Assembly (NCBI GenBank): GCA_943787465.1
Contig: CALSMN010000003.1
Coordinates: forward strand, 1-64,000
DNA length: 64,000 bases
Direction: 5' to 3'
Source of the DNA: an uncultured Bacteroidia bacterium
GTDB taxonomy: Bacteria > Bacteroidota > Bacteroidia > NS11-12g > UBA9320
The notes beneath the pieces are model-generated. The model was given only the letters and a program-made list of their open reading frames with translations, made no database searches and was not told where the DNA came from. The translations under genes and the position numbers were made by a program. Below, one piece after another: positions 410-17,331 of this stretch; positions within the stretch are counted from its first letter, which is position 1; the number at the start of each line of letters is the position of its first letter.

Positions 410-414
410 ATTAA

Positions 415-522: not shown

Positions 523-554
523 ATCAGTGTTATAGTTCAAAATTATTGTTTAGG

Positions 555-573
555 TGTGCGATAGAGGTGCACA
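555..573. promoter_or_regulatory. Inverted-repeat operator, copy A (TGTGC-N9-GCACA)
   Basis: Perfect 5-bp arms TGTGC (555-559) and GCACA (569-573) are separated by GATAGAGGT. The same 19-bp arrangement occurs at 4344-4362 and 5380-5398, always just upstream of a minus-strand start. This copy precedes the short ORF and hsdM. A WYL regulator encoded nearby is the obvious candidate ligand, because WYL proteins bind inverted repeats as dimers; that pairing is inferred. Confidence 0.7.
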
Positions 574-576
574 ATA

Positions 577-842
577 CTATAAAAGTTTTATTTTTTTAAC
601 CCTAAATTTAGGCTGATTAGTTCTGTTATCTATATATTCCTCGGAAGTAACTTGTATTCTGGTCCCGTTTATTAATGTATTATTAGTAACTAGGTTTGGT
701 GCTATGAAAATATTGTCTCCAAACTCATCAGGCTTAAAAAATGCATAACCTTTGTGAGAATCCAAATTGATTACTTCTCCAATAATAAATTGTTGTTCCT
801 CATTTGAGCTTGTTTCAAGGTTCTCAGTCTGTTCCCAATTTT
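577..842 (-). pseudogene. Cold-shock-like (OB-fold) domain, possibly the detached C-terminus of the response regulator
   Basis: The minus-strand frame from about 842 to a stop at 577 reads ...EEQQFIIGEVINLDSHKGYA, then FFKPDEFGDNIFIAPN and QPKFRVKKIKLL*. KGYAFFKP and DNIFI match the RNP1 and RNP2 positions of the cold-shock domain (KGFGFI.P, DVFVH). There is no ATG or GTG in frame. The only usable start, TTG at 763-765, would cut off the first beta strand. The open frame runs directly on from the end of the response regulator gene: adding one AACC unit to the AACCAACC at the regulator's stop codon would join the two into ...DSNQPTIENWEQ.... It is therefore more likely the C-terminal domain of that regulator than a separate gene. 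Confidence 0.6.
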
Positions 843-1760
843 CTATGGTTGGTTTGAGTCTACATGTATTTTAAACCAAATCAAAATATCCATTAATTGA
901 AACAAGACACTTTTCATTAAATAAGACGTATTTACTTGGTGTACAAATTCATCTATTTTTGATCTATGCGAACCACTTTGGGTTATTGTTAAGATATTTC
1001 TTAAGTTAAAACTTATCTGTTCAGGCAAATGCGTTCCGTCTAAATGCTTATATCCCTTTTCAATGAAATAGGAGTCATCTTTGAAATTTTTACCGGTTAA
1101 AAAATTGCTACTTTCATTCAGGGAAACAAATGGTGTTACAAAAGCGGATGGGAGTAAATTGTACTTATTAAATCCAGAGAAAAGGTCTTCTATTACTTTT
1201 CTAACTGTATTAAATTGATTGACGATAGTTAAGTTATCTATATCTTTTAATAGGTTTAAAATGTCTTGACCGGCAAGTTCACCAATATATCTCTCACTAC
1301 ATACTTCAAATACACGTTTATACTTTTGTCTTATCTGGGTGTCTTCTAAACTAGCAGCAGCTTGCTTTATATCATTAAAAAGCCGATCTGTTTCTTCATC
1401 ACTTCCTTTTGTATAAATATTTCTGAATGCTTTGCTGAAAGTTTGGTCTTTGTAGGCTTCAGCTTGTCCTGTAAAAACAAAAACTTCAAACTTTTTTTTC
1501 AAGCCTAAAAGTTGCTCTTTTGCTCTGTGAACATTAACAGTATCCTCAGTGTTTTTAGCATCATCTTCATTTTCGTAGAATTTAGCGTCAAGTAAGACGC
1601 CATCATAGAATGGGTAGTTTCTTTCAAGTTCGCTCATACCACCATTTAGGGATTTGAAACTTATTAGATTAATCCCATTCCGTTTTGCACGCCCCTTAAA
1701 TGGTGTCATTGATTCATGTTGGTCATCTATCCAAAGAATATTGTAATAAATTTCATTCAT
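843..1760 (-). CDS. Response regulator: receiver domain plus uncharacterised alpha-helical C-terminal domain
   Basis: The 305-residue product starts with a receiver domain: acidic pair in ILWIDDQ (D12, D13), phospho-acceptor D58 in GVLLDAKF, T97 in VFTGQ and K118 in YTKGS, all at canonical positions. There is no HTH output domain. Residues about 140-300 are helical, with FNTVRKVIEDLFSGFNKY, LRNILTITQSGSHRSKIDEF and a hydrophobic last helix. The layout is reminiscent of HEPN/DUF4145-like helical bundles, but I cannot prove that. The ATG lies one base after the stop of the kinase-bearing gene, so the two form a kinase-regulator pair. A cold-shock-like domain follows in another frame and may once have been fused. 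The receiver is certain; the output domain is unassigned. Confidence 0.8.
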   Translation of the reverse strand: MNEIYYNILWIDDQHESMTPFKGRAKRNGINLISFKSLNGGMSELERNYPFYDGVLLDAKFYENEDDAKNTEDTVNVHRAKEQLLGLKKKFEVFVFTGQAEAYKDQTFSKAFRNIYTKGSDEETDRLFNDIKQAAASLEDTQIRQKYKRVFEVCSERYIGELAGQDILNLLKDIDNLTIVNQFNTVRKVIEDLFSGFNKYNLLPSAFVTPFVSLNESSNFLTGKNFKDDSYFIEKGYKHLDGTHLPEQISFNLRNILTITQSGSHRSKIDEFVHQVNTSYLMKSVLFQLMDILIWFKIHVDSNQP

Positions 1761-1761
1761 A

Positions 1762-4309
1762 CTATTTTATTAATTTGAGTGTAAATTGAAATTGAAATTT
1801 AACAGGGTAAATAGGATCCTCATTTAATACTAAATTCCAGTTTGCATCTCCAAACTCTTTTGCAATTCTGTGGACGTCATAACCACCTAAACCAGTACCT
1901 ATATTTTCATCGTCTGTTGAGAATTTGGTTATGAATTTATCCCTGTCAAAATTATTAGGGAACGGTAAACCATTATTCTTAATCTCTATGAATAAAAAGT
2001 CATCAATAACATCCAAACTTACGACTACCATCGTTACTTTCTTTTTTAGTTTTGAATCCGTATTTATTTGCATTTGTTAAAATATTATCAAAAAGTGTTT
2101 GGAGTAATATTTTACTACCATAAATCCCTCTTATTTTCAAATCCTCTTCTCTTATCAAATTTTTGCTAGATATTAAAATTTAATCCATTTTGAGAAAGAG
2201 AATTAACAATGCCATTTAGTTCAAATATAGATATCATAGATTTATCATAATCCTCAACAATAAAGCCATTTTCTCCCTTCTCTAGTACCTTTGTTATAAA
2301 GTTCACATCTCTACTGATTTCTTTAAGAGCTGAAAAAATATCAGTCTCATAAAACTCCTTAAAAGAGTCATTCAAATCTTCAATTTTCTTATTATTAGTA
2401 TGTAAAAAAGTGATGTATGTTATTAGACCAATCTAATATATTTTGTCTAGGCCTTCCAAGGGTGTGTTTTAGCGAAGCAAATTCGTTAAATTCTAAAATA
2501 GCTTTACTGTTAGCAAGAGCATTTCGCTCATTATGGAGTTTTTCAATACGTTTAGAAACTTCCGTAATACCTTGTACCTTAGCTTTTTGCTCCTCAATGG
2601 GTGGAAGCTTTATTACAACTTCTAAGAAGTCATCTTTTTTAATCATAGGAATCGTTGTACCCGTTCTGTATGAATCTAATTGTTCTGAAACGTAATCAGA
2701 TTTCAATTCGTTAATTAGATATGTCACATTCACTAAATTATGATTCACTTTAACGAGGCTAAACCATTATCTATGAGTATCGGGATGCCGGTATATTTAA
2801 AATATGTTGGTTTTAATGATTTCCATCTGGAGGCAATTAAAAGAGACGACTCATCTATCAAACGAGAATTTTTAATGGGCTTGTCATCACCATCAATTTT
2901 GTCGATATCTAGTTTGTAATGTAATAGATCATCACTTAAATCTCTTATTCTAATATGCTTAAAATTTTCTGGAACTTCATGTTTAGTTCCACTTAAATAT
3001 GTCAAAATATCTCTAAGCTTTACACCTTCAATTTTTTTCTTAAAGTATCTAGGCACACTTAAGTTATAGTCGAGCTCTTTGATGTAATTATTATCAATAA
3101 TTCTAACCACATCAATATTTTGATTGTCAGCATTAATTACGCGATTTAATTCTAGGTCATTAAGCAACTTTTTAGAGGTGTCTTTTGCTCTTACAAAATC
3201 ATTGGTTTGAATGAATCGAACCTTCCCAACTTCATTTTTATTCTTATTAATTACCAAAACAATCGATGGCATTCCAGTATGTGGAAGAATACCTCCAGGT
3301 ATTGAAACTATTGTATCAATAAGGTCTTCATTGATGAGTTGTTCTCTCAAGCGTTTATAGTTCCCTGATTTGAATAGAAATTCAGGTGTTAACAATGTAA
3401 TTAATTTTCCTTTGGACTTTAAAGAACTTAATCCCTTTTTTTATTATGAACTCTTCTATTGTTTTAATGCCAGGATATAAATTCCGTTCCTCTTTATTTA
3501 ATTTTAATCCTAATGGAGGACTTGATATAATAAGATCAAATTTTTTTGGATTTATTTGGCCATTTCTTTAGAGAGTTATTTAAAACAGACTCAAGAGATC
3601 CGCCTTCGCCTAATCCTTTTTTTATATTGCTAGTCCTTAAAGCCCCAATTAAAAATGTTTTATTGTTAATTTCCTCCGATAATAGAGAATCAAAATTCTT
3701 TATATAAATTGGAAATGATCCATAACCTGCAAATGGGTTGTAAATCCTAGATTTTTTGGAAATATCAACTAATGAGCACATAAATCGTGTTAACTCTTTA
3801 GGTTGAAGATTTTGCTTATTTTCTACACCATTTGAATCTAAAATATGATATAAGAAAGTGTCAAAAAAACTAGCATAGTCTTTAGCAGAAGAATTTTGAA
3901 TAAATATTAGAAAGTCCCGTAAAATATTTTTTAGTGTTAATTCTTCTATTTTTAAAATAGATTTCATAAAAATATCATTTATACCGCCAAATTGCAAGGG
4001 TAATACAGCATATGAATCTAAATCCTGAAAAATCGAATCTTCAGACTTTCCTTTAATTTTTGCTTCATCTATTTCTTTTAATAATAATTTAATTATTTTT
4101 ATAATAATAAAATCTGAAGATTTATCATTTAATATTTTTTTTAATCTATTTTCATTATTACAAAAAACTTAGTAAAATCAAAATATTATAATATTCTCAT
4201 CAAACAAAATAGACTCCTCTCGAAGCATGTTGAATACACTCAATGCAAGTTCCTCAGGGGACTTAATTGAACTTTCATTAGCATTTATAATATTATTATT
4301 CTCACTCAT
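1762..4309 (-). pseudogene. N6-DNA-methylase / type I specificity / histidine-kinase fusion, multiply frameshifted
   Basis: From an ATG at 4307-4309 (MSENNNIINANESS) the conserved segments follow one another over ~2.5 kb but switch frame about eight times, near 4180, 4165, 3544, 3439, 2750, 2406, 2176 and 2042. Domains in order: helical N-terminus; SAM motif I IYNPFAGYGSF (~3713-3745); motif IV FDLIISSPPLG (~3500-3538); HsdM-like LITLLTPEFLF...LIDTIVSIPGG; a specificity-like half ending IPMIKKDDFLEVVIKLPPI.EQ; coiled linker; DHp H-box NEFASLKHTLGRPRQNI (His codon 2464-2466); HATPase N-box LLQTLFDNILTNANKY (~2056-2103); G-box NIGTGLGGYDVHRIAKEFG. Uninterrupted it would be ~850 residues. Most shifts fall in A/T runs, so decay, assembly error or slippage are all possible. 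The response regulator follows one base later. Operator copy B lies 35 bp upstream. Confidence 0.75.
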
Positions 4310-4343
4310 ATCCTTCAAAATTGGTTCAAATATCTGTTAAAAG

Positions 4344-4362
4344 TGTGCACTACATCTGCACA
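4344..4362. promoter_or_regulatory. Inverted-repeat operator, copy B (TGTGC-N9-GCACA)
   Basis: Arms TGTGC (4344-4348) and GCACA (4358-4362) flank ACTACATCT. It sits between the end of the WYL regulator gene and the ATG of the methylase-kinase gene at 4309, where a minus-strand promoter must lie. The arms and spacing are identical to copies at 555 and 5380. Confidence 0.7.
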
Positions 4363-4363
4363 T

Positions 4364-5373
4364 CTAATTTTTATAATATTCATTTAACTGTTTTACTTGG
4401 TTCGCAATTACATTTCGAAGCTCTCTGGGTGCCATTACTTTAACTCCTCCTCCAAATGATAACAATAGACTTTCTAACTCATAATTAATAATAAGTTTTA
4501 AACTTACATTTAGAGTTCCATCGTCATTTAAACTACTTTTTTGGCTTGCATGAAGTGGTTTGGTAACTATATATGCAGCTTGTTGGGGGCTAAATATTAA
4601 GTTAACTTCTTCTACAATGGAATCAACTTTTCGTGTTACACCAATAACATCGTAAAATAATCTTCCCAGTCAGTGGTGGTGTCAAGGTAAGTAATAGATG
4701 ACTCTTCTATACTCTCAATTCTATCTAAAGCTAAATTCCAATTGTTTAATTTTTTCTCTTGATTATAACCAAAAACAAACCAACGATTTTTATACTGCTT
4801 CAAATAGTATGGATGAAAGTTAAGGATAAAAGCGTCTTTATTAAAGGGTTTGTATCTGATCTTGAGAACCCTTTTTTGTGAAATGCCATTAAATATTGGA
4901 TTTATGTATTTATATCCTTCGTAGTCTATATTACTTTCATATGATATAACTGTTTGTGTATTTTCTTTAAGGCCAAATTTATCATTCAATAATGGGCTTA
5001 TTTCACTCAGCCATTCAAGTTCAGGAGAACCTTCAAAACGTATGCAGCACAGAAATTGCACTTTTAATCTTTGTGCTTCTGAAGAATTAAGTGGCTGTTT
5101 ATTAATGGAAAAGTTTTTGTCCTCATAACGATAATATGGTGGTTTTACTGAATTATATGATTCTATGGGGGCACTATAGCCTACCTCGCTTCTCATAAAC
5201 TTAATGTCATCCCTGAGTTGACGTGTTTTTATTCCTTTAGAATGGGGATCATCTTCTCTTAAGGCCTCATTTACAGCTTCTAATAATTCCATAAAAGTAT
5301 ATGTTCTACTAAAATTACTGAGACATTTATCTATTACATTATATCTTAAAACTGCATTTTTATTTATTGCCAT
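4364..5373 (-). pseudogene. WYL-domain transcriptional regulator, one frameshift near its C-terminus
   Basis: The start is MAINKNAVLRYNVID at 5371-5373. A more upstream ATG at 5395-5397 would overlap the operator. The first ~85 residues form a winged-helix region (IDKCLSNF..TYTFMELLEAVNEAL). Residues ~150-240 are the WYL domain (LKIRYKPFNKDAFILNFHPYYLKQYKNRWFVFGYN), and the WCX-type C-terminus ends LRNVIANQVKQLNEYYKN* at 4364. The frame shifts at AAAA 4654-4657, where one base appears missing: after DWEDYF the text continues in another frame as YDVIGVTRKVDSIVEE. WYL proteins often repress defence operons and sense nucleotides or oligonucleotides. The three inverted repeats at this locus are plausible binding sites, one over its own promoter. 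Confidence 0.8.
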
Positions 5374-5379
5374 GTGTTC

Positions 5380-5398
5380 TGTGCGAATATAGTGCACA
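5380..5398. promoter_or_regulatory. Inverted-repeat operator, copy C (TGTGC-N9-GCACA), autoregulatory position
   Basis: Arms TGTGC (5380-5384) and GCACA (5394-5398) flank GAATATAGT. It ends 7 bp upstream of the WYL regulator's preferred ATG. This placement suggests that the regulator controls itself and argues against the earlier ATG at 5397. Confidence 0.7.
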
Positions 5399-5682
5399 TG
5401 TATACATAAATTCCATATTTGCTATTTCTCACTGATTAGATTGATAAACAATTAATTAATACTTTTCAATTTATACAGTTCTTTATTGTTGTTAAGTAAT
5501 ATTAAGACTTAATCTCTCCCTTCTAAAACATTGAAGTAATTTTTTTACCCTAATTTTATTTATTTATCTGAGTGAAAAAGGTATCATAAAGATAGATAAA
5601 GCCCCATAATATCTGTACATATAGTTCAAGGTGATAAGAAGGAAAAAAACTTAAAAAAAGGTAAAAAATTTTACACCATTTC

Positions 5683-5928
5683 ATGAAACGGTCTCATGAT
5701 TTTTGCTCAATGAAAGATCAAGTTATTTATTTAGATGTAGAACAGGCAGCGGCCTTTCTCAATGTATCACCGAAGTATGTCTATACATTGACTCAACAGC
5801 GTAAAATCCCTTTTTATAAACCGTTTGGTAAAAAACTATTATTCAAATTAGAGGAACTAACAGATATAGTTGATGCAAGCCATGTGAGGTCAATTACTCC
5901 CTATCGAAGAATTAAAGCAAAAAATTAG
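5683..5928 (+). CDS. Excisionase-like helix-turn-helix protein
   Basis: A small basic protein of 81 residues, or 72 if it starts at the second ATG (5710, MKDQVIYLDVEQAAAFLNVS). The core YLDVEQAAAFLNVSPKYVY, then RKIPFYKPFGKKLLF and ..LEELTDIV, is the MerR-like winged HTH of the HTH_17/excisionase family that Bacteroidota integrative elements carry next to their replication ATPase. It is followed 80 bp later by such an ATPase. It probably acts in excision or regulation of the element. A tyrosine integrase, the usual partner, is not intact in this window. Confidence 0.75.
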   Translation: MKRSHDFCSMKDQVIYLDVEQAAAFLNVSPKYVYTLTQQRKIPFYKPFGKKLLFKLEELTDIVDASHVRSITPYRRIKAKN

Positions 5929-6009
5929 GTAAGATGAATAGAAAAAACAAAAAGGAGGTTTGCAACAAAATAGAGTCAAATTCCTCGATCTAACACAACC
6001 TTTTACAGA

Positions 6010-7161
6010 ATGATAAAAAAGCTAAATCCTGAATTTGACGATTTAAATTCAAAGGTAATCTTAGACCATATAAAGGTACTCACAAAGAGAAGTGAGGCGG
6101 AAATATTAGAGTCTTTAAGGATAAATCCAACTGATAAAATTGATAGACCAAAGACAGCTTGGTTGCAAAAACGAGATAATAATCCTTATCAATTAAATGA
6201 AGACCCAATTTTAGGAACATTAGGTAACTTCTCATTAGCTATTGGCAAGGCTAAAAGTAGAAAATCTTTTTTCATAAATATTGCAGTATCTGCTGTGTTG
6301 GGTAAAGATTTAATTCTTAACCAATTTAGAGGGACCTTACCACCTGAACAAAGCACAGTTCTCTATTTTGATACTGAGCAAGGGAAATATCACGTTCAAT
6401 TGGCTTTAAAGCGTATTTGTGACCAAATAAATGTAAAAGAACCTGAGAATCTTAAAGTTTTCGGTCTAAGGAGTTTAAAGCCATCAGATAGACTTAAAAT
6501 AATTGAGTATGCTATCTACAACACTCCTAACTTAGGATTTGTAATAATTGATGGAATTAAGGATTTAATCAACTCAATAAATGATGAAGCAGAAGCCACA
6601 TTAATATCAAGCAAGTTGTTAAAATGGACTGAAGAAAAAAACATTCATATAATGACAGTTCTTCACCAAAACAAGAGTGATAACAATGCTCGAGGTCATA
6701 TTGGTACTGAACTAATAAATAAAGCTGAAACAGTTCTTTCAGTAACTAAAAATGAGCAGGATAAAGATATTTCAGTAGTTGAAGCTCAACAATGTAGAAA
6801 CATAGAACCCGAACCTTTTGCATTCGAAATTAAAAATGGATTACCTGTCCTTGTTGAGGATTTTGAAATTAGAACAGAAACAAAAAGTAGCAAGTATGAT
6901 ATCAGTGATTTAGAGGATTATAGAAAGTTCAAACTATTGATTGAGGCATTCAGCAAGAAAGATAGTTTCACATATTCAGAATTAAGAATACAAATCCAAT
7001 TAGCATACAAGAAGGAGTTTAATAAGAAACTTGGAGATAACAGAGCTAAAGAACTCATTACTATATGTAAAAACAATGATTGGCTAATACAGGAAAAACC
7101 AAAAGGACCATATACAATAGGAAAATTTCAAGGTTTAGAAGATGAAGAAAGTATTTTTTAA
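6010..7161 (+). CDS. RecA-like RepA-family ATPase of a mobile element
   Basis: The 383-residue product has a RecA-fold ATPase core. An atypical Walker A lies in FSLAIGKAKSRKSFF (around residue 80), an acidic strand in VLYFDTEQGKYHVQ, Walker B in LGFVIIDGIKDLI (around 180), and a sensor-like MTVLHQNKSDNNARGHIGTE. This is the RepA/hexameric-helicase-like ATPase found beside primase-like proteins in Bacteroidota integrative and mobilisable elements. The C-terminal ~90 residues look like a winged-helix DNA-binding tail (FKLLIEAFSKKDSFTYSELR). It lies between the excisionase-like gene and the broken primase-like gene and probably serves element replication. The frame is intact. Confidence 0.75.
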   Translation: MIKKLNPEFDDLNSKVILDHIKVLTKRSEAEILESLRINPTDKIDRPKTAWLQKRDNNPYQLNEDPILGTLGNFSLAIGKAKSRKSFFINIAVSAVLGKDLILNQFRGTLPPEQSTVLYFDTEQGKYHVQLALKRICDQINVKEPENLKVFGLRSLKPSDRLKIIEYAIYNTPNLGFVIIDGIKDLINSINDEAEATLISSKLLKWTEEKNIHIMTVLHQNKSDNNARGHIGTELINKAETVLSVTKNEQDKDISVVEAQQCRNIEPEPFAFEIKNGLPVLVEDFEIRTETKSSKYDISDLEDYRKFKLLIEAFSKKDSFTYSELRIQIQLAYKKEFNKKLGDNRAKELITICKNNDWLIQEKPKGPYTIGKFQGLEDEESIF

Positions 7162-7164
7162 TCA

Positions 7165-7209
7165 CGGTTTAGTTTAAAGCGTTATATACGCTTTTAAACT
7201 GTTAAACCG
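7165..7209. repeat. Imperfect inverted repeat with GTTTAAAC-like motifs
   Basis: Left arm CGGTTTAGTTTAAAGCG and right arm CGCTTTTAAACTGTTAAACC flank TTATATA and pair with small bulges. A further GTTTAAACC motif follows at ~7234. It lies directly after the ATPase stop and before the primase-like gene. It could be a transcription attenuator or terminator or a replication-origin element; the sequence alone does not decide. Confidence 0.45.
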
Positions 7210-7260
7210 ATACCTATGATAGTTTAATAAACAAGTTTAAACCGTAAACTAACAACGAAT

Positions 7261-8623
7261 TTGAATAAAATAGATACATACAGATACATATTAGAAAAGG
7301 GTAGTAAAAAACACTACTGCCCTAATTGCGGAAAGAAACGATTTGTAAGATATATCGATACACAAACAGGCGACTATTTACCTGAAAGATATGGTCGTTG
7401 TGACCGTGAGATAAACTGTCCAGGAGGACTATAACAATCCTTATTTAGATGGCTACGCAAAAGCCATTTGGAAGCAGGAACAAGGGAATAAGTCAAATTG
7501 GAAGCCAAGACAGCCAAGCTATAAAAAGAAGCCTGTAAACAAGTCTAAAAGGGCTTATGTACCTAATGAAGTATTAAGCCAAACCCGAGCAGGTTATGAG
7601 AGTAATATCTTCATCCAAAATTTACTTTCAAATGTGCCATTCCCATTTGAGGTCCAAGATGTTGAACAGGTTATTTCTTTGTATCATTTAGGTACAATAA
7701 AGACAGGGTATCGAGCAGGTGCAATCACCTTTCCGTTCATTGACGTAAATCATAATGTAAGAGCAATTCAGGTAAAGCAATTTGATAAGTATAACCATAC
7801 TACAGGTACTGACTTTATTCACTCGATAATAGAAAAGCACCATAATAGAAACCATACACCTATACCTAATTGGTTGACCCCTTATAAAGAGAATGAAACG
7901 AAGGTTTCTTGTTTGTTTGGTGAACACCTTTTAAGCAAATACCCTCACAACCCTATAGCGTTAGTTGAAGCCCCTAAAACAGCAATCTATAGCACGCTAT
8001 ACTTTGGAACACCTGAACAGCCTAAGAACTTACTTTGGTTAGCGGTTTTCAATTTAAGTAGTTTGAATTATGAGAAGTGTAAAGCCTCTAAAAGGTAGAG
8101 ATGTTTATTTGTTCCCTGACCTATCAAAAGAAGGTAAAGCCTTTGAGCTTTGGAGTAATAAGTCAAAAGAAATACAAAAGCGTTTACAGGGCACCTCCTT
8201 TCAGGTTTCTGACCTACTTGAAAAACTTGCACCTGATAAAGATAGAGACCAAGGTAAAGACATTGCAGACTATTTAATTAAACAAGATTGGAGACAATTT
8301 AGAAAGGAAGAACAAACACCAATTAGTGAAAAAGTGAAAAAAGTGAAGCCCCAAAAACAACTTATTTTTTCCAATCTGAAGTAGAAGTTCCAAAAACTAA
8401 GCAAGTTCAAGATTGGAGTATGGAGATAGCAGAATTAGAAAAGTATTTCAGTGAGGTTGAACTGCCTAATCAACCTGTAAAATTGAAAGACAATAGTACT
8501 GTAACTAACCATTTAGTTTTTATTGATAGTCATCTTGCTGCTGTAAAAGCAAATTCAGGTAATCTTAAATTCAAATCTTATTTAGAGCGATTGCAAAATT
8601 TCGCTGAAACTATACGGGGGTAG
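7261..8623 (+). pseudogene. Zinc-finger / DUF6371 primase-like protein, frameshifted
   Basis: A TTG at 7261 opens NKIDTYRYILEKGSKKHYC, with zinc-ribbon cysteines in HYCPNCGKKRF and GRCDREINC as in DUF6371/primase-like proteins of Bacteroidota elements. The frame breaks near 7430 (PGGL* versus GYNNPYLDGYAKAIWKQEQG in another frame), again near 8085 (NYEKCKASKR* versus KPLKGRDVYLFPDLSKEGK) and near 8370 (QLIFSNLK* versus YFFQSEVEVPKTK). The middle holds a TOPRIM-like region (NPIALVEAPKTAIYSTLYFG, then DVYLFPDLSKEGK) typical of primases. It follows the RepA-like ATPase, its usual partner. Three independent breaks make it very probably non-functional. Confidence 0.7.
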
Positions 8624-8972: not shown

Positions 8973-9031
8973 GATGAAAGTTGAATTCTGCTAAATTTAA
9001 ATCCTCAATGATTTAATGCGACAGAACCTAT

Positions 9032-9212
9032 ACAAAGTGTTAATACGATATTTTTCATTTTTTGTTAAAGATGTTATTTTTTAAGTTCTCTTATATAGAT
9101 AAACACCACTCTCAGTTTATCGGAATTATCAAAATTGGTTAATAGCTCTAGCCCTTGAGAAAAACCCATCGAATTTTGTTTTATGCTTTCCACGATTTCT
9201 ACAATGGTGCTA
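9032..9212 (-). repeat. Truncated duplicate of the junction between two operon genes
   Basis: This segment is about 85% identical by eye to 11131-11312, which holds the first codons of the 602-residue gene, the intergenic gap and the 3' end of the 162-residue gene. Here it contains a matching MKN(I)VLTLC start that soon ends, preceded by a truncated tail encoding ...NSMGFSQGLELLTNF...RELKK*. It shows that the 162/602-residue gene pair was once tandemly duplicated and the second pair then mostly deleted. The flanks (8973-9031 and 9213-9348) show no gene. Confidence 0.75.
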
Positions 9213-9348
9213 GTTTTTACAAGTGGACATATGCAAAGATTGAGCATCTCTGCTGATCTAGATATGTGCCGAAGGGGTTAGGAATAGATAGTAATAAATA
9301 GAGGTGCTACTTTTTTTAGTTCAATTTTAAATAAATATTTAGAAAAAT

Positions 9349-11157
9349 CTATTTGACTCTTTGTATGGTATATTTTTGAATCTTTGAAATCTCATCTAAA
9401 GAAACATTATTATATAGTATGGTTTCATATACTACATCCTGATGATTGCCAATAAGAGTTAATTGAAGGGGAAAACCTTCAATATGCTCAATCAGTAAAG
9501 GGTCTTTGTATGCACTTCCGTCTTCGTTCAAAAATACCTTCTCCAAATTGTTAAGGTCACACAAGTACTTACCGTAGCTCGCAAAAACATAATTAAAATA
9601 GTAACCTCCGTTGGATTTCCCTTGATTCGAATATAGCATCAATTCTTTGAACTCATCAGGCACCTCTTCTATAAGACCTCCTTTAGTTCGAGTTCCATCC
9701 TTAGAATACAATAAATCTTGTCTAAGTGCTTTGATTTTATCTAATGGATACCATTTAGTAGAGTACTTATATCCAATAGCACTTACAGTAGTTTCGCTTA
9801 CTAGTATTTTATCTTCCCAAGTAGAATTATACATTGCACCCTCTTTCCAACTTTCCAAACCTCTGAGATACCCATCTGATTTTGGAGATATTGGTTTGGC
9901 AGGCACTGGGTGTTCGTAGGAGAATGAAAAATAAGTAGGTAAATACCAATTGCTTCTTGCTTGTTTAAAGTTGGCTGTATAGATGGGGCCCATGTTATAC
10001 ACATAATTCCTGCCATTCAACTTGCCAGGTGCAGTTTGTCTATCTGCTAATTGTAATAAGGTTACACTGTCTATACCGTTATTAATTTTTGCCTTCTGAG
10101 TAAATTGCCAAAAATACATTACAAAAGCCCTCAAACGATCGTAAGATTTTTTAGACCTCAATAAAATATTGTCGTAATTTGTTTCTTCGGTGGATGTCCA
10201 AATATAATCACCTATAGACCACGGATATTGAAATCTATACGCATCACCATATCGTATAACCCCTTTTTCTCTTTCTATTAAAAACTGTGATAAATCATTA
10301 CGATTATCATATTGAGTCCATTCTGAAACATATGTAGATCTACCTGCACAGGTGTAATACTTAAAATTGGTTTGTTTAGGACCAAAATAGTCGACAGGCG
10401 GCTTTCTGCTCGGACGGAAATTTGGTCTGATAAGTGGTGTTGAGGTGGCAATTTTACTGTTATCAAAGAGACCAATTGAGTAAACAGGTTTATTCAGTTT
10501 AAGATAAGATTGCACCTCTTCATCGGGTAGTTTTATATTTCTTAATGTTGAATAGAAAAATTTGGTAAAATCGGTATAATTTGCATTTTTCTTAACTTGA
10601 ACTTTTAGTGGTATCTGCCATTTACCATTGTTCATTGTCGGTTCACTATTAATTATCTCGTAGTCAAATGCTGAATTAAGCATATCTCTTGAAATACTCA
10701 ATAAATCTTGGATTGATTTTTCTTCAGCGCGTTCGTTGAGTTCCAATAGTTTAATATTGTTGGCAAAAAGCCCTCCCTTTAGTTCAGTAGCACCACCAGA
10801 ACTTTCAACAAACGAACCCAATTTATTTACGGAAACCGTTACGTTACACGTTATAACTACGGTTCCGTCTTCTTTAGTCGCCTTATCAATAATTTTATAC
10901 TCAGCGACAGAGCCATTATTTATCATTGAAATTTGGTCTTTCATTAGCTCATCGTTAATCAATGTGGTATTAGAACTTATAAATACGGAAGATGTTTGTG
11001 TCAAAGCAGATCTCAAAGCCTGTATTATAGCCTCTGATTCTGTTTTACCTGATGCGACAACTTGGACTTTAACTAAGTCTAAGTTTTGGTCTTGCCCAAA
11101 TACATTGCTACTGATCACTAATAGCCCTAAACAAAGTGTTAATACGACATTTTTCAT
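9349..11157 (-). CDS. Exported protein with FlgT-N/LPP20-like N-terminal domain, 602 residues
   Basis: A signal peptide (MKNVVLTLCLGLLVISSNVF-GQ) is followed by a ~100-residue region, VKVQVVASGKTESEAIIQAL then RSALTQTSSVFISSNTTLIN. It matches the FlgT-N/LPP20-like pattern G.G.t..EA..nALr.Ai.q..gt.iss.t...nd.l..d.i. The rest, rich in aromatic residues and asparagine (YYTCAGRSTYVSEWTQYDNR), is not recognised. Two genes upstream in the operon share the N-terminal region but not the C-terminus, so the family diversifies by its C-terminal part. The ATG is 16 bp after the stop of the 162-residue gene. It is likely periplasmic or at the outer membrane; function unknown. Confidence 0.7.
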   Translation of the reverse strand: MKNVVLTLCLGLLVISSNVFGQDQNLDLVKVQVVASGKTESEAIIQALRSALTQTSSVFISSNTTLINDELMKDQISMINNGSVAEYKIIDKATKEDGTVVITCNVTVSVNKLGSFVESSGGATELKGGLFANNIKLLELNERAEEKSIQDLLSISRDMLNSAFDYEIINSEPTMNNGKWQIPLKVQVKKNANYTDFTKFFYSTLRNIKLPDEEVQSYLKLNKPVYSIGLFDNSKIATSTPLIRPNFRPSRKPPVDYFGPKQTNFKYYTCAGRSTYVSEWTQYDNRNDLSQFLIEREKGVIRYGDAYRFQYPWSIGDYIWTSTEETNYDNILLRSKKSYDRLRAFVMYFWQFTQKAKINNGIDSVTLLQLADRQTAPGKLNGRNYVYNMGPIYTANFKQARSNWYLPTYFSFSYEHPVPAKPISPKSDGYLRGLESWKEGAMYNSTWEDKILVSETTVSAIGYKYSTKWYPLDKIKALRQDLLYSKDGTRTKGGLIEEVPDEFKELMLYSNQGKSNGGYYFNYVFASYGKYLCDLNNLEKVFLNEDGSAYKDPLLIEHIEGFPLQLTLIGNHQDVVYETILYNNVSLDEISKIQKYTIQRVK

Positions 11158-11173
11158 TTTTTTGTTGAATACG

Positions 11174-11662
11174 TTATTTTTTAAGTTCTCTTATATAGAT
11201 AAACACCATCCTAAGGTTATCTGAATTATCAAAATTGGTTAATAGCTCAAGCCCTTGAGAAAAACCCATCGAATTTTGTTTTATCTGTTCAACTGTCTCG
11301 ACAATGGTGCTAACATTACCGATTGAGTCTTTAGTATCTTTGGTGGTTATTATCATATCCATAGAAATTGTAGCTCCATTCAAAAAAGTACTAGCTTGTG
11401 ATTGCGCTTTAACTTGAGCAACACGATTCATTATTGATTCACTTGTGTATTTTGCTTTCTCAAGGCTGATAACAGATACAAGGTATTGATTAGCATAGTC
11501 ATCCACTATTTTCACCCCTTCGAATGGTTTAGCACTATACATGCGTTTGATGAAATTGCTAAACGCTGTTTTGTCTTCGTTGAAGGATTGGGCTTGGGAA
11601 CTTGTAAACAAGAACAAAACAAGAAAAGAAGTAATGATTATTTTCAAATTGATTTTTTCCAT
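11174..11662 (-). CDS. Small exported protein, 162 residues, unknown
   Basis: A signal peptide (LKIIITSFLVLFLFTSSQAQ) precedes a mature part of ~135 residues with a mixed helical/strand pattern (FSNFIKRMYSAKPFEGVKIV; ESIMNRVAQVKAQSQASTFL) and the end LRMVFIYIRELKK. I recognise no family. Its start overlaps the end of the GIY-YIG-like gene by 19 bp, indicating translational coupling. A truncated copy of its 3' end survives at 9032-9212. It probably works with the neighbouring exported proteins. Confidence 0.6.
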   Translation of the reverse strand: MEKINLKIIITSFLVLFLFTSSQAQSFNEDKTAFSNFIKRMYSAKPFEGVKIVDDYANQYLVSVISLEKAKYTSESIMNRVAQVKAQSQASTFLNGATISMDMIITTKDTKDSIGNVSTIVETVEQIKQNSMGFSQGLELLTNFDNSDNLRMVFIYIRELKK

Positions 11663-12108
11663 TTTGGATATTTTTCTTTTAACTCTGCTTTTATACTCTT
11701 CTCAATTTCATTTGGTTTTTGTTTAGGCCAATCCGTTAAAAACCAATATATCTTTATACCATATTCAAACTTGGTTTCAACATACCAAGGCCATAACTTA
11801 GCTCTTGTTACAAATTCACTAGTACTTTCTTTATATTCAATAGGTCGTTTTGTAGCCGCTAAAAGCCTTATTGGCAACTGATGAAAATTAATAACTGAAT
11901 CATTTACATTACCCGTAACGCCAGCCTTGCCGAAATATAGTAATTCGTTATCTTCACCTTCCATAGATAAAGAATAAACTAAATAAACACCTGGTCTGTA
12001 AGGGATATTAGCATTGTAAATGGCTTGCGCATAATCCATTTCTTTATGAAACAAAACAGGACGTTCGCAGTGGTAGCCTTTCAAGCATTCGAATTCACTA
12101 ATTTTCAT
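11644..12108 (-). CDS. GIY-YIG-like nuclease-fold protein inside an exported-protein operon
   Basis: The 154-residue product has no signal peptide. PYRPGVYLVYSLSMEGED then NELLYFGKAGVTGN gives the two-strand G(I/V)Y...Y(I/F)G core of GIY-YIG endonucleases. LPIRLLAATKRP could supply the arginine, and PNEIEKSIKAELKEKYPKW the metal-binding glutamate helix and the usual P.W end. It is thus probably a cytoplasmic nuclease-fold protein, active or not. It lies between two exported-protein genes, overlapping the next start and 6 bp after the previous stop. Such a partner for envelope proteins is unexpected. The fold call is by motif only. Confidence 0.55.
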   Translation of the reverse strand: MKISEFECLKGYHCERPVLFHKEMDYAQAIYNANIPYRPGVYLVYSLSMEGEDNELLYFGKAGVTGNVNDSVINFHQLPIRLLAATKRPIEYKESTSEFVTRAKLWPWYVETKFEYGIKIYWFLTDWPKQKPNEIEKSIKAELKEKYPKWKKSI

Positions 12109-12114
12109 AAGTCT

Positions 12115-13392
12115 TTAGCTTTTTTTGGTTATTCCATATTTTCTAATTTTTTTTAACTCCTCTAATTTTCTATTATCATTCATTGTGAACTGAACAATTG
12201 AATTTTGCGGTTTAAGATTAACAAGAGAGATTACAAATCCCCAATTTACTGGTTCATAATATCCTTTATAGTTTTTAGACATGTATTTTTTTAAAAAAGA
12301 ATATCCTTTTAATTTATCAGCTACATTAAAGTAACTACTGTAGCAAGAACTATGGGAATACGTTTTTACTTCTAAATCTGTATAAGTCATTCCTGTTCCA
12401 TTCCAAATTGGGCGAAATGGACGATATCCTTGCTGCACATCGCGACATGAATTGGAATTGAATAAACTTTGATAACAGATACCACAACCCCCACCATCGT
12501 TTCCCGTCCGCAAATAAGGCCTAAATTGAATATCTTGCACTTCTATGTCACTTAACGAATGGCTTTGACCTAATTGGTTATTATCTATACCACTACTTAT
12601 TTGAAAGTTTAACAGTTCATCTCGTAATTTAACAATCATATTAAAAACCTTACTTATTGATTCCAAACTTCTCAAGTGAAATTGCCCGGAATTTTTTTCG
12701 TCTATTGCTATTGTAATTATGTAGGTTTTTAAGCCTATTTTGTGATATTCCAACACCTCAGTCTCATTTAATGATAGGGCTTTAATAGTATTAAATAAAG
12801 AAGTTTTATAGTTATTAATATTAGATGTTGATTTAATTGTTATGCCAATTGGAATAATATAATTATTAGGATTTCTGGGGTCTGCGGTAGGCTCAGAAAC
12901 CGATAAATCGTACTCAAAACAATTTTTAAGTAATTCTTCAATTGATTGATTCAAATTTTCAAAAGCAGTAATTTCATTTTTTGAATTGAGTTTTTTTTGA
13001 TTTACATTAAATACAAACAGTTCACCTTTTAATTCATGTTCAATGCCCTTACTTGTAATAAAATTCGTAAGTTTAGTTACGGAAACAGTAGCTTTTAAAG
13101 AAGTTTTAAAATCACCATTGGATAGTTGTATATCTGATATCACATCAAATTTCTGAATATTCCCATTTGCAACTGATACAATTTCATCTTTTACTAAATT
13201 ATCATTCAATATTTCGGTCTTTGATGATATGAAAGTGCCAAAGGCCTGTTCAATGGCACTTCTTAAAGCATTTTGTTTGGCTTCATCTTGTGTTTTACCT
13301 TGTCCGCTTACTACAAGGGTCACGGTTTTATTTTCTTGTGCGTAGGCATTGATACTTAATGCAAGTGCCAGGATAAAAAATATTTTTTTCAT
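12115..13392 (-). CDS. Exported protein with FlgT-N/LPP20-like N-terminal domain, 425 residues
   Basis: The signal peptide MKKIFFILALALSINAYAQ and the following VTLVVSGQGKTQDEAKQN, ALRSAIEQAFGTFISSKTEI are nearly identical, also at DNA level, to the next upstream gene. The C-terminal half differs and carries a cysteine cluster (GGGCGICYQSLFNSNSC, then HSSCYSSYF) that may form disulfides in the periplasm. Position 2 of the three-paralogue set; 21 bp separate it from the previous gene. The conserved N-terminus probably anchors a common assembly or partner. Function unknown. Confidence 0.7.
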   Translation of the reverse strand: MKKIFFILALALSINAYAQENKTVTLVVSGQGKTQDEAKQNALRSAIEQAFGTFISSKTEILNDNLVKDEIVSVANGNIQKFDVISDIQLSNGDFKTSLKATVSVTKLTNFITSKGIEHELKGELFVFNVNQKKLNSKNEITAFENLNQSIEELLKNCFEYDLSVSEPTADPRNPNNYIIPIGITIKSTSNINNYKTSLFNTIKALSLNETEVLEYHKIGLKTYIITIAIDEKNSGQFHLRSLESISKVFNMIVKLRDELLNFQISSGIDNNQLGQSHSLSDIEVQDIQFRPYLRTGNDGGGCGICYQSLFNSNSCRDVQQGYRPFRPIWNGTGMTYTDLEVKTYSHSSCYSSYFNVADKLKGYSFLKKYMSKNYKGYYEPVNWGFVISLVNLKPQNSIVQFTMNDNRKLEELKKIRKYGITKKS

Positions 13393-13413: not shown

Positions 13414-14802
13414 TTATTTAGCTACAGAACCAGGTTCGTGTTTAACTATACTTATTTCATTTAATTTTTCGACATCAGAAAGTGGTAGATAAATATCGAA
13501 AACTTGAAGTCTAAGGTTCATATTGTTTTTTGAAGACACGGTTTTAAAGTGTTCACCATTAAATATTGGGCTGAAATAAATAAACTGTTCTCTGCAATAT
13601 TCTTGCTGTGCCCCTGAAACTGTCGTGTTAAATAGTTTAATATTATAGTGTTCAGATGAAATATCAGGTACCCTATTAGGTGGATAAAGGTAATACTCTC
13701 TTAGGTAGTCTGCTGGATAATGTTTATTGATGTCAATACCATAAGTCATTTCTCTTTTACTCAGTAAGCCGTGAACAAAAACATAATGATTACTGTCAAT
13801 AATTTGAATTTTCCGATCCACTTGTGATGGTAAATTACGTAATAGCAGCAAGTTCTGTTCTGATGAACTACTGGAGGTCCAATCATTGATGCTATTTTTA
13901 AAAAACGGAGTGTAATTTATTACTTTGTTATCTGAAACAATATCATAATTAAACAAATTAAGAGTAGCATGCTCAAATAAAAAATTAATGAGGCGTAGGG
14001 ATTTTTTATTTCTTAAATAAAGTGAATTTGGACCGAACTTACTATATAGAGTTATTTTATAAAATTCGCTACCAGATTGTTTAGTAAAATCTACCTCCGA
14101 ATCACTCATTTTTATAGCAGACAATGTATTCAGAAAATAATCTATGAAAACATCTAGATTGGAATTAGGGCGACATTCAACTGTCATTCGCAATTTGTAT
14201 ATATCATTAAAAGACAGCTCATTCGTATTTGGCCAATAGTCAGAATATCCTCCTTCAGATAAATAGCTTTGTAGATCTAATCTTATGTCGGACTTTCTAG
14301 GTGGTTTAACTTCTACAGTAAAATCTATAGAATTTTCAAGAATTTCCAAACTTTTTCTAACCATATTCCTTATAACCTTTTCCTCTGCGTCCGCTTGCAA
14401 TTTTAATAATTTCAGATTCATACCGAACAGACCGCCAGCGATTGTCGCTGAATGCCCTTCGCTCTTTGTTATTTTTTGCATTTGTGAAATCGAGACAGTA
14501 GCGCTTAATGTAAGATCCACAATATTGTCAGGAAGGATATTTGAGGATAATATATTAAAACTTATGACTGAACCTTGAGATAATAATGTAATGTTATCAC
14601 TTACAAAAGAATCATTATTAATTATAGTCTCAGAAGAAATAAAAGTACCAAAAGCCTGCTCAATTGCACTTCTTAAAGCGTTTTGTTTGGCTACCTCCTC
14701 TGTTGTTCCACTACCGCTTACAACAAGGGTTACAGTTTTATCGTCTTGTGCGTAGACATTGATACTTAATGCAAGTGCCAGGATAAAAATTACGTTTTTC
14801 AT
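13414..14802 (-). CDS. Exported protein with FlgT-N/LPP20-like N-terminal domain, 462 residues
   Basis: I place the start at MKNVIFILALALSINVYAQ (14800-14802). An in-frame ATG 18 bp upstream overlaps the previous gene. After the signal peptide, VTLVVSGSGTTEEVAKQNAL then RSAIEQAFGTFISSETIIND is the shared domain, and IAGGLFGMNLKLLKLQADAE is a second block also present in the 602-residue paralogue. The C-terminal ~300 residues have no close counterpart in the paralogues. Like its relatives it is probably secreted to the periplasm or outer membrane. The strong 5' identity with the gene at 12115-13392 indicates recent duplication or gene conversion. Confidence 0.7.
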   Translation of the reverse strand: MKNVIFILALALSINVYAQDDKTVTLVVSGSGTTEEVAKQNALRSAIEQAFGTFISSETIINNDSFVSDNITLLSQGSVISFNILSSNILPDNIVDLTLSATVSISQMQKITKSEGHSATIAGGLFGMNLKLLKLQADAEEKVIRNMVRKSLEILENSIDFTVEVKPPRKSDIRLDLQSYLSEGGYSDYWPNTNELSFNDIYKLRMTVECRPNSNLDVFIDYFLNTLSAIKMSDSEVDFTKQSGSEFYKITLYSKFGPNSLYLRNKKSLRLINFLFEHATLNLFNYDIVSDNKVINYTPFFKNSINDWTSSSSSEQNLLLLRNLPSQVDRKIQIIDSNHYVFVHGLLSKREMTYGIDINKHYPADYLREYYLYPPNRVPDISSEHYNIKLFNTTVSGAQQEYCREQFIYFSPIFNGEHFKTVSSKNNMNLRLQVFDIYLPLSDVEKLNEISIVKHEPGSVAK

Positions 14803-14810
14803 GATTTTGT

Positions 14811-15887
14811 TTACCTCCAAATGATATTGTTATACGTTACTGACTTTGGTTGATTTCGAGCTTGTTCCACCGCTATTTCTCGGAACGATCTAACCCGTAA
14901 TTTATCCAATTCTAAATTTCGAGCAGATTGTTTTTCCTGAGATACAGCGTCTCTTTTAGATTGATTTTCTCGATAGGTATCGTCTCTTTTACCTTTTTCC
15001 TCCGCAACACGCACTTGTTCCTTTTGCATTGCAATTTTATCTGAATATTGTTTCATCTTAAACTGCCATCTTGCTTTTTCATCGGCTTTAAGTTTTGCAT
15101 CGATTGAATTCATGAAAGCACTTATTTCTGTCTGGCATGAAGCCATTGGATTTATTAATTCTAGAATATCTCCTGCTTTTTCTGCCCCTGCTGGATTTTG
15201 TGACGCACCCCAAGTAAGTTTTGCCTCCTTAAATTTCATTTCACAATCAGCATCTATTTTCTGCTGATAAACAGAAGTCAAGGTGTCTAAACATTTGAAA
15301 TAACAATCCTGACAAACATCCGGCACAAGTGATAATTGATAAATTGCTTCATCATACTTTTCCTGATTTACTAATGTTTGTGCATCTTTTATGATAAAAT
15401 CACAGTTAGTGCTGTAATAACTTATAATTTTTGTTTTAGCTTCTTCTAAAAAAGCTTGCACTTCTTTGTTTTTTGGATTTATCATTTTTAGTGCAGCGAT
15501 AAACGATTTATTCTCATTTGTACCAACACCTTTTAGACTTAATGTTACATTTGAGAAGATGGTATTGGTAAGTGCATCGCCTACAAAAAATGTAACCTCA
15601 ATATTCTGAGCAATCATTTGCGGAGGGCCTGCAATAATATCCTTGGTGCCCACATTTATATTAGCTGTAATAATAAATCGAGCATTCACTTGACTGCCAC
15701 CCATACCATTGCTACTTGTAATTTGATCCATCTTGGTAACAAGCAAGTTTTTTGCTTCAGTTGGTAGTGAAATGCTTTCAGGCAAATAGGTATTTAAAAT
15801 TATTCTACCAAAGTCATCTAACTTGACTTGAGCATTTGTGCTGACTGCCACAAAACTTAAAATAAGTAGTGCTATAATATTTTTCAT
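14811..15887 (-). CDS. Exported protein with C-terminal coiled coil, 358 residues
   Basis: Signal peptide MKNIIALLILSFVAVSTNAQ. Residues ~25-150 look like a strand-rich domain (ARFIITANINVGTKDIIAG) of the type seen in LPP20/CsgG-like envelope proteins. A TPR-like helical section follows (EKYDEAIYQLSLVPDVCQDC) with paired cysteines, then a highly charged coiled coil (KMKQYSDKIAMQKEQVRVAE) to the C-terminus. Its stop lies just beyond the next gene's start at 14802. It is in the middle of the exported-protein operon and could be a scaffold. No exact family recognised. Confidence 0.65.
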   Translation of the reverse strand: MKNIIALLILSFVAVSTNAQVKLDDFGRIILNTYLPESISLPTEAKNLLVTKMDQITSSNGMGGSQVNARFIITANINVGTKDIIAGPPQMIAQNIEVTFFVGDALTNTIFSNVTLSLKGVGTNENKSFIAALKMINPKNKEVQAFLEEAKTKIISYYSTNCDFIIKDAQTLVNQEKYDEAIYQLSLVPDVCQDCYFKCLDTLTSVYQQKIDADCEMKFKEAKLTWGASQNPAGAEKAGDILELINPMASCQTEISAFMNSIDAKLKADEKARWQFKMKQYSDKIAMQKEQVRVAEEKGKRDDTYRENQSKRDAVSQEKQSARNLELDKLRVRSFREIAVEQARNQPKSVTYNNIIWR

Positions 15888-15893
15888 CGTTTT

Positions 15894-16847
15894 TTATTTT
15901 TCACCTAATACAAGAATTGCTTCACCTAGTCCACGAGTCATTAACTTTACCTCAAAGTTGAATGGGCTCTCTTTTAAATACTTCACTAATTGTCTCCCGT
16001 ATTGTCTGGCATCTAATGCTCGTCCCTTGTCGTCATACACAGGAATTCGAAGCTGTTCATAATCAATTCTGCTCTCAGACGAATTTGTTTCATTAAATCT
16101 TCCTGCCACTGTATTCTTCTGGATCCATTCATAGACAAGATCGCGAAGTTCTTCCCCTTCAAATTCAGACTCTAAATCATACTCCCAACTGTCCCAAGTT
16201 CTTACTGTCAGTCGAATTTCTCTGCCATTTAAGAGTAAATCATCAAAATGACCTTGTAATTGGTTTACAAATGGATCTATGTTACTGAGAATTGCTTTTT
16301 CTAATAGCACTGGGACTATTTCTTTTCCAGGAGTTCCGTTGCCTGTAGAAGATGCAATACGCTTACTGGTATATGCATCAAAGGCCTCCAGAATAAAGGA
16401 TACAACTGTACCCTTTTCTGTTTTTGTTACCTTCCACCATATTTGGATAAGAATATCTGCTTTTGCTTTATTTTTAAGAATATCAAGTGGCGTCACAGCT
16501 TGATTTGCACCTGATGTTTTACTGGCTGTCATATTATCTTCTGCAGCTCTTGTCTCAATTGCCTTTAGTTCTTGTTCAGCATCTTTAAGTGGGAATCCTC
16601 TATCAATCATTAAAGATCCAATCTTACTTATAACTTGACCAATTTCAGTGTCTTCCTGAAAGACTTGTTTATAGTTGGGAACTTTTTGTTTTGTTCCTTG
16701 ATTATCAAACTCCGTCATAAAATAGCGTTGCTCACACCAATTGTCACTTGGTAGAATCATTAATGTTGGTTTTTTTGCTTGGCCAAATACAACATTTGTT
16801 GAAGAAAACATGCAAATAGCAATTATTAAGAGATGTAATTTTCTCAT
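15894..16847 (-). CDS. DUF6175 family exported protein
   Basis: The start MRKLHLLIIAICMFSSTNVV (ATG 16845-16847) lies one base after the previous stop. KKPTLMILPSDNWCEQRYFM, DNQGTKQKVPNYKQVFQEDT, VISKIGSLMIDRGFPLKDAE, TPLDILKNKAKADILIQIWW and DAYTSKRIASSTGNG match the conserved blocks of DUF6175 as I know them from Bacteroidales and other Bacteroidota. Function is unknown; the family resembles the periplasmic nucleotide-fold-like domains of CsgG/LpoB-type proteins. Second gene of the exported-protein operon and probably its most conserved marker. Confidence 0.7.
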   Translation of the reverse strand: MRKLHLLIIAICMFSSTNVVFGQAKKPTLMILPSDNWCEQRYFMTEFDNQGTKQKVPNYKQVFQEDTEIGQVISKIGSLMIDRGFPLKDAEQELKAIETRAAEDNMTASKTSGANQAVTPLDILKNKAKADILIQIWWKVTKTEKGTVVSFILEAFDAYTSKRIASSTGNGTPGKEIVPVLLEKAILSNIDPFVNQLQGHFDDLLLNGREIRLTVRTWDSWEYDLESEFEGEELRDLVYEWIQKNTVAGRFNETNSSESRIDYEQLRIPVYDDKGRALDARQYGRQLVKYLKESPFNFEVKLMTRGLGEAILVLGEK

Positions 16848-16848
16848 A

Positions 16849-17331
16849 TTAAAAACCATTAGTTAGTGATTTGATTATTTTTTGTTCTTCTAGGTATTTT
16901 CGTAGTTCGTTTTTGGATACCGAAACTTGGTATACTTTCCAATTTTTAGCTCCAATAGTTGAGGGCAACGTAGTTTTGATTGTATTACTTCTTATAAATC
17001 TTTTCCAATCCCCATTTCTTGCAAAAAAACTACGTTCAATTTCTTTGAAGTTTTCTTGATTTTCAGAATTCCTTAGCATTGGGGTTTGAGTGGCACACCC
17101 TGTACCACTTGATACGCCTGAAAACAGAATTGCGTGTAGTGCATCTTTTTGAGATTGACTTGATTTGTACCTTCGTCCCTTTCTAGAATCCCATATTTTT
17201 AGAGTTAGGTATCCGTCAGACTCCAAAGTTACACATTCTGTTTGATAGCTTTTGTTACTCGAAACAAAGCCTTGAAATAAGAAACAAACAATCAAAGCTG
17301 TCAGAATGTGAAACACTTTTTTTTGCATCAA
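16849..17331 (-). CDS. Small exported protein, first gene of the operon
   Basis: The 160-residue product has an N-terminal hydrophobic signal (VFHILTALIVCFLFQGFVSS). The mature part includes ESDGYLTLKIWDSRKGRRYK, then SQKDALHAILFSGVSSGTGC and FFARNGDWKRFIRS, a pattern seen in small proteins co-encoded with DUF6175 and LPP20-like genes. No named family can be given. It is the first gene of a minus-strand operon reaching to 9349, so the operon promoter should lie just above 17331, in AT-rich DNA. Confidence 0.6.
   Translation of the reverse strand: MMQKKVFHILTALIVCFLFQGFVSSNKSYQTECVTLESDGYLTLKIWDSRKGRRYKSSQSQKDALHAILFSGVSSGTGCATQTPMLRNSENQENFKEIERSFFARNGDWKRFIRSNTIKTTLPSTIGAKNWKVYQVSVSKNELRKYLEEQKIIKSLTNGF

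Follow-up and report, generated by a model that had tools for sequence, protein, structure and literature searches.

The GIY-YIG fold consists of a central three-stranded sheet with flanking helices. The superfamily is defined by a signature hairpin, and 2LWF is listed among its domains, according to the portion of PMC9071465 used here. GIY-YIG (seg) and HNH (mob) enzymes are the two free-standing homing families of phage T4, as stated in an excerpt of PMC2988022, and URI (GIY-YIG) nucleases are known toxin domains, as stated in an excerpt of PMC3482391. The gene examined here encodes a 154-aa protein and lies in a 64,000-nucleotide stretch of DNA from an uncultured Bacteroidia bacterium (hereafter the window). 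It belongs to a run of eight minus-strand genes extending from 17331 to 9349, and the seven others all encode signal-peptide-like N-termini, as judged by a simple hydropathy rule. The features of this region are as follows:

16849-17331, minus strand: 160-aa exported protein that opens the run; operon core
15894-16859, minus strand: 321-aa DUF6175 protein (PF19672, E 7.3e-107); operon core
14811-15887, minus strand: 358-aa exported protein; operon core
13414-14802, minus strand: 462-aa (from ATG) exported paralog of the 425-aa protein
12115-13392, minus strand: 425-aa exported protein whose N-terminal region is LPP20/FlgT_N-like (all Pfam matches weak, and some seen in paralogs)
11644-12108, minus strand: 154-aa GIY-YIG-like cytoplasmic protein (P0001), with hairpin G40-V-Y42 / Y58-F-G60, candidate Arg R81 and candidate Glu E136
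11174-11662, minus strand: 162-aa exported protein, whose start overlaps the 154-aa gene
9349-11157, minus strand: 602-aa exported paralog of the 425-aa protein
9027-9217, minus strand: remnants of an additional 162-aa gene copy (9077-9217) and of the start of a following gene

The operon core is formed by the 160-aa, DUF6175, 358-aa and 162-aa proteins and the LPP20-like paralogs; DUF6175 is not mentioned in the literature searched. The 154-aa protein has no signal peptide by the same simple hydropathy rule, and its gene, which is single-copy in its genome, is located 6 nt downstream of the 425-aa gene and overlaps the 162-aa gene by 19 nt. An earlier reading of this DNA, made from the sequence alone, had described a cytoplasmic protein embedded among exported ones, and this arrangement is borne out. 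The motif residues that it named are likewise all found in the translation, with G40-V41-Y42, Y58-F59-G60, R81 within LPIRLL, and E134/E136 within PNEIEKSIKAEL as the candidates. The C-terminal end reads PKWK, where most relatives have P.WN.

The region has a history of rearrangement. Positions 9027-9212 duplicate 11126-11312 as direct repeats, and these, together with the 162-aa remnant, reflect a past duplication whose duplicate was lost or recombined; in addition, 223 nt near the start of the 462-aa gene are 79% identical to the neighbouring paralog. AAA_25 and WYL proteins and a type I methyltransferase-like fragment are encoded in the first 9.4 kb of the window, where no integrase was seen by eye. 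Several minus-strand frames at 2395-3997, of which 2745-3395 is type I methyltransferase-like, look by eye like a broken restriction-modification gene. An AAA_25 ATPase lies at 5683-8384 together with a small protein that by eye is DNA-binding-like and two overlapping frames that by eye resemble a split primase-type protein; these are perhaps the remains of a mobile element.

None of the 154-, 425-, 162-, 358- and 602-aa or DUF6175 proteins has a match in PADLOC, and none was recognised there as part of a known defence system. An AlphaFold2 model of the 425-aa protein reached a pLDDT of 51.9 and has no PDB match at E<=0.001. Three uncharacterised phage proteins did match at that threshold, but with TM-scores of 0.16-0.27, and no function was deduced from them. 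TssR_C was matched (E 0.0067) by only 1 of 10 paralogs, and this match was dropped.

As a lone query, the 154-aa protein returned nothing useful from Pfam, NCBIfam, PHROGs, PADLOC or PDB, and no match at E<=0.01 in 37 other genomes of its taxonomic family. With this protein as query, a scan of the genome contig collection, sensitive to close relatives only, gave a single locus, L007, on a contig titled as a Chitinophaga pinensis MAG. The entry point to a wider family was a weak match in genome G163 (P0002, 27% identity over 118 columns). Used as query against 296 phylum genomes, P0002 gave members in 16, its source G163 among them. With alignment profiles, matches were obtained in 3 of 108 order genomes (one match being weak and broken), in 5 of 92 genomes from the family to which G163 belongs, and in 11 of 325 class genomes. 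There is overlap between these sets and the preceding ones, and the window genome is counted wherever it belongs. Membership of the 154-aa protein in this sparse Bacteroidota family is solid, since a profile of nine members that contained neither it nor L007 retrieves it in its own genome with E=1.8e-7, and profile-profile comparisons with the family, spanning 107 and 108 columns, give E-values of 4.3e-10 and 3.5e-10 at a probability of 96.7.

The family set used for residue counts has 22 members. It excludes six members of one genus (L011, L013, L014, L016, L019 and L022), duplicate copies of loci already included, L028, whose match is weak and broken, and the weak matches L002, L003, L005 and L006. 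Canonical-looking members (L075, L009, L068, L077 and L080) carry GVY, Y(I/V)G.SG, an Arg before (I/L), the Glu, and LP.WN. In two genomes of one genus (L032 7094-7522 and L034 6900-7328), a degenerate member lies beside a gene that by eye is sucD-like, and in L034 it also precedes a fabG-like gene, named in the same way; this placement suggests a domesticated role. Elsewhere, at L033 7095-9702, a family member is found near genes that by eye are AbiH-like and toxin-antitoxin-like.

The sequence-only reading had proposed a GIY-YIG fold. The signature hairpin is present, as G40-V-Y42 and Y58-F-G60 align with the GVY and YIG of relatives, and the family profile aligns its hairpin region with 2LWF. 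The protein alone is recognised by neither Pfam, NCBIfam nor PDB: it has no match to PF01541, for which the best score in the family is 15.4 bits (E 0.023, cut-off 22.6 bits), and a GIY-YIG HMM gives it -0.2 bits, with 91 of 478 background frames scoring higher. Recognition comes at the level of the family. I compared it with 25 PF01541 domains, kept from 32 loci (L024, L025 and L037-L066) once those with an empty motif search, a motif too far from the locus middle or a false match had been dropped, against a background of 478 frames of 90-300 aa from the fetched loci and the window (475 for AUC values, after removal of 3 true GIY-YIG proteins). With the window protein and its ortholog excluded, the GIY-YIG HMM separated 20 family members from the 475 background frames with an AUC of 0.941, one member scoring above all background, and the family HMM, from which the same two were excluded, ranked the 25 GIY-YIG domains with an AUC of 0.903, five of them above every background frame. 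Alignment of the two profiles with hhalign scored 25.5 when the window protein and L007 were left out of the family and 26.0 when they were included. As controls, the best of 100 column shuffles reached 18.4 and 17.7, respectively, and the reversed profile 19.8 and 16.1. The part aligned in the run scoring 26.0 is a 22-column hairpin only, and the window protein and L007 by themselves gave 15.5 against the GIY-YIG set, no better than the best of 40 shuffles (15.7).

In the PDB, a 16-row family profile had a single match at E<=10, namely 2LWF (a weak match, E=0.089), and profile A10, built without the window protein and L007, still placed it at the top (E 0.41, the next, unrelated chain being at 0.95). 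Profile A6 missed 2LWF and matched two replication-associated proteins (E 1.2), profile A4 had no PDB match, and L080 as a single sequence matched only a glycoside hydrolase (E 0.86). Five weak matches were obtained with 16 members in NCBIfam, of which OmpB was the best (E 0.01) and excinuclease Cho the third (E 0.048, one member). AlphaFold2, run on the 154-aa protein with a two-sequence alignment, yielded a model of low confidence, with a pLDDT of 36.2 and a pTM of 0.35.

An unrelated small fold, to which GVY and YFG lend a mere resemblance, would account for the failure of single-sequence searches, for a pLDDT of 36 from two sequences, and for the unrelated top matches of A6 and the empty result of A4. 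The two-way HMM separation, the shuffled-column and reversed controls, and the ranking of 2LWF as first for two profiles speak against it, and I consider it quite unlikely. A GIY-YIG fold for the family is likely on these profile comparisons, and the original guess was probably right. That the 154-aa protein represents a divergent Bacteroidota branch of the GIY-YIG superfamily, outside the curated libraries used, is supported but not proven.

The 154-aa ORF is a real gene under protein-level selection. It shares 67.1% identity with its L007 ortholog over 146 aligned residues, with pS 0.77 and pN 0.23, synonymous sites being saturated. The corresponding pN values are 0.22 for the 162-aa gene, 0.15 for the 358-aa gene and 0.42 for the upstream exported paralog; selection has thus maintained the protein, whose divergence is similar to that of the 162-aa gene. 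Identity falls from 89% in the first quarter to 47% in the last, and the regions around Y42, Y58 and R81 are almost identical. Apart from parts of the 162/130 pair, no quarter of any other gene in the comparison is as similar as this first quarter. Of the flanking genes, the upstream paralog shows 38% identity over its whole length and 25% in the final quarter, and the downstream gene 59% in its first quarter. The L007 frame has an in-frame TGA after its residue 112, past which it remains similar to the window protein; this looks like recent decay or a sequence error.

Conservation of the catalytic Arg and Glu had been put forward as a check on the nuclease assignment. Both are kept in the one close ortholog found, L007, where the Glu lies beyond the in-frame stop. 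The wider family is more variable. In the alignment of 22 members, the hairpin Tyr column reads Tyr in 11 and Phe in 11, and the YIG Tyr column Tyr in 13, Phe in 2 and Met in 7. The Arg column holds R in 8, K in 7 and other residues in 5 of 20 members (K, C, E or T in 12 of the 20); the window protein and L007 are left out of this count, as the aligners disagree, hhalign setting R81, which is present in the ortholog, on the R of KDR(I/L), and MAFFT and HMMER not doing so. The Glu column, the candidate metal-binding position, is kept in 16 of the 21 members that reach it, E136 of the window protein included. Catalysis has probably often been lost across the family, since the hairpin Tyr is replaced by Phe in half of the members and the Arg in 12 of 20. 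The window protein itself retains both Tyr, the candidate Arg and the Glu, but carries a Lys at the position of the C-terminal Asn found in most relatives. I would put the odds that it is an active nuclease at about even.

A GIY-YIG-fold protein that no longer cuts, and has instead a binding or regulatory role towards its exported partners or DNA, would explain why the hairpin Tyr or the Arg is missing in many members, why one genus (two genomes read) keeps a degenerate copy at a housekeeping-like position, and why the window protein has a Lys for the C-terminal Asn. The retention of both Tyr and R81 in the window protein and its ortholog, and of the Glu in the window protein, speaks against such a loss here, and I consider this explanation unlikely.

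The operon has a patchy distribution. The 425-aa protein has matches in 4 of 108 order genomes, its own included, and in 0 of 18 genus-mates. A search of 395 phylum genomes for the 162-aa protein gave only its own genome. Five operon copies were compared, namely the window, the three other order genomes with a 425-aa match (L092, L093 and L094) and L007. Each of the four relatives is cut by a contig end, and all five copies contain at least one non-exported, tightly packed gene:

Window copy: the 154-aa GIY-YIG-like gene
L007 copy: a SIR2_2 gene at 879-1814 (27.3 bits, cut-off 24.5, E 4.2e-6) and the stop-bearing GIY-YIG-like gene
L093 copy (genome G500): an HNH gene (24.8 bits, cut-off 21.4) and an 85-aa gene; also a 199-aa gene
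L092 and L094 copies: one 75-aa gene each

The junctions at which these genes lie differ, with the HNH, SIR2-like and 75-aa genes following the 358-aa gene, and the GIY-YIG-like and 199-aa genes following an LPP20-like paralog. The differing kinds of non-exported gene hint at exchangeable cargo, five copies being few. Tyrosine recombinases are located within about 2 kb of the operon in two of the four relatives (L092 and L094), and no integrase was read in L007 or L093. The envelope operon is apparently mobile, and I infer the same for the window copy. The family members between sucD-like and fabG-like genes in one genus are not mobile cargo, and count against a cargo role. In L093, the HNH gene (5148-5809) overlaps the 85-aa gene by 4 nt, and has a weak similarity to PtuB of Septu in PADLOC (E 0.002). 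The DNA-related activity suggested by the sequence-only reading, here taken as a role in conflict or transfer, fits this context of HNH and SIR2-like genes and of integrases near two operons, insofar as gene neighbourhoods can indicate it.

The occurrence of both GIY-YIG and HNH genes between the genes of one envelope operon also recalls free-standing homing endonucleases, where a selfish GIY-YIG gene would have inserted between operon genes and would spread by cutting copies that do not have it. The gene does lie between conserved genes, and a copy free of it exists in L094, which has the flanking genes, the upstream paralog being truncated to 164 aa. The operon repeats and gene remnant attest to recombination, and the 89% identity of the first quarter to L007 is in keeping with this reading. 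However, the gene has diverged about as much as its downstream neighbour (pN 0.23 against 0.22) and identity is not raised in the flanks, so that this one pair gives no sign of biased inheritance. Known homing enzymes have a separate DNA-binding module, for which a protein of ~150 aa would offer little space. Phage collections offered no member either: IMG/VR was searched with seven family queries, and 50,697 phage records with P0001 and L080. Homing is disfavoured because, in that one pair, the gene and its neighbour have diverged to a similar extent and the upstream flank has low identity, and I regard it as improbable. No relative was found in IMG/VR with the exported paralogs as query, and no match in plasmids for P0001, P0002, DUF6175 or the 425-aa protein.

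The exported paralogs raise a further possibility, that of a polymorphic-toxin arrangement, in which they would be secreted agents and the adjacent small cytoplasmic gene an immunity gene or a loose toxin cassette. Consistent with this, a 425/407-aa paralog pair has a conserved N-terminus and a variable C-terminus, with 71% identity in the first quarter falling to 20% and 25% in the last two, one L007 paralog (2294-3649) ends in an Lcl_C domain, and URI nucleases occur as toxin domains (PMC3482391, in the excerpt used). Against it, the GIY-YIG-like gene encodes neither a signal peptide nor a trafficking domain, and the exported paralogs match no Pfam toxin family. To my knowledge, nuclease folds are also not known as immunity proteins. 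This arrangement is decidedly improbable. The readings weighed here, and the likelihood given to each, are not fully exclusive of one another.

A link to phages emerged from the exported proteins. The 425-aa protein matches 15 of the 50,697 phage records, all of them Prevotella Lak phages, with E-values from 4e-18 to 1e-12. Gene order was read in one record, the 4.6 kb of Lak-B5 (MK250024.1, reverse complement of 1-4577; L097 2439-3933), where, under code 15, a 181-aa exported protein directly precedes a 313-aa LPP20-like homolog; no GIY-YIG-like gene was seen in these 4.6 kb. The 181-aa protein shows 22% identity to the 162-aa protein of the window, a weak match (pairwise E 2e-6), and tblastn of the 162-aa protein in the phage collection gave none. 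The order of the pair and this weak match suggest, but do not prove, that the Lak exported pair and the 162-aa/LPP20-like pair of the window are one shared module.

The explanation that I favour, tentatively and at somewhat below an even chance, is that an envelope operon, apparently mobile, retains as its conflict cargo a divergent GIY-YIG protein that is probably a nuclease. The 154-aa protein would be a small single-domain, cytoplasmic, metal-dependent nuclease that cuts DNA during conflicts of mobile elements or phages with the cell, the exported envelope proteins would form the sensing or exclusion side, and in sister operons the nuclease could be exchanged for other enzymes, such as HNH or SIR2-like ones. 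Such a conflict role would fit a cytoplasmic GIY-YIG-type nuclease co-produced with exported envelope proteins on a mobile island; catalysis, DNA as the substrate and the conflict role itself are all inferred only. A broader proposal, which I think unlikely, is an undescribed mobile envelope conflict system with a fixed exported core and exchangeable cytoplasmic effectors, whose exported pair Lak megaphages would share, the same module thus serving islands and phages in competition.

Cargo that differs from copy to copy is how several defence and conflict systems first came to notice. An additional GIY-YIG protein is of less interest here than the variable non-exported genes of a patchy, apparently mobile envelope operon. 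Should the exported proteins act in sensing or exclusion, with nucleases that can be replaced, the operon would be a new conflict system linked to the envelope, and possibly to megaphages as well. The GIY-YIG superfamily, for its part, would gain a branch missed by the curated libraries used, in which catalytic residues are often lost.

Among the closest described systems is the GIY-YIG/URI superfamily (PF01541), its nearest representatives by profile including UvrC-like domains of the window's own genome and the N-domain of AtGRXS16 (2LWF). The family shares with it the GVY and Y.G hairpin, a candidate Arg after the hairpin and a later Glu, and its C-terminal P.WN following the Glu resembles, by eye, the P.YN of UvrC. 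It differs in scoring below all curated cut-offs, in a longer loop from hairpin to Arg, and in having no added domains; the window protein further departs from most relatives in the Lys that replaces the C-terminal Asn. With T4-like seg and mob homing endonucleases, as described in the excerpt of PMC2988022, the locus has in common small GIY-YIG and HNH genes placed between conserved genes, but the single pair examined gives no indication that the gene moved recently, and the phage collections yielded no members. Polymorphic toxin systems that contain URI domains, as far as the excerpt of PMC3482391 describes them, similarly combine exported proteins of constant front and variable end with nuclease folds nearby, whereas the nuclease is here a separate cytoplasmic gene with no trafficking domain. 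Finally, Prevotella Lak megaphages, like the window, possess an exported pair, of 181 and 313 aa, in the same order as the 162-aa and LPP20-like proteins.
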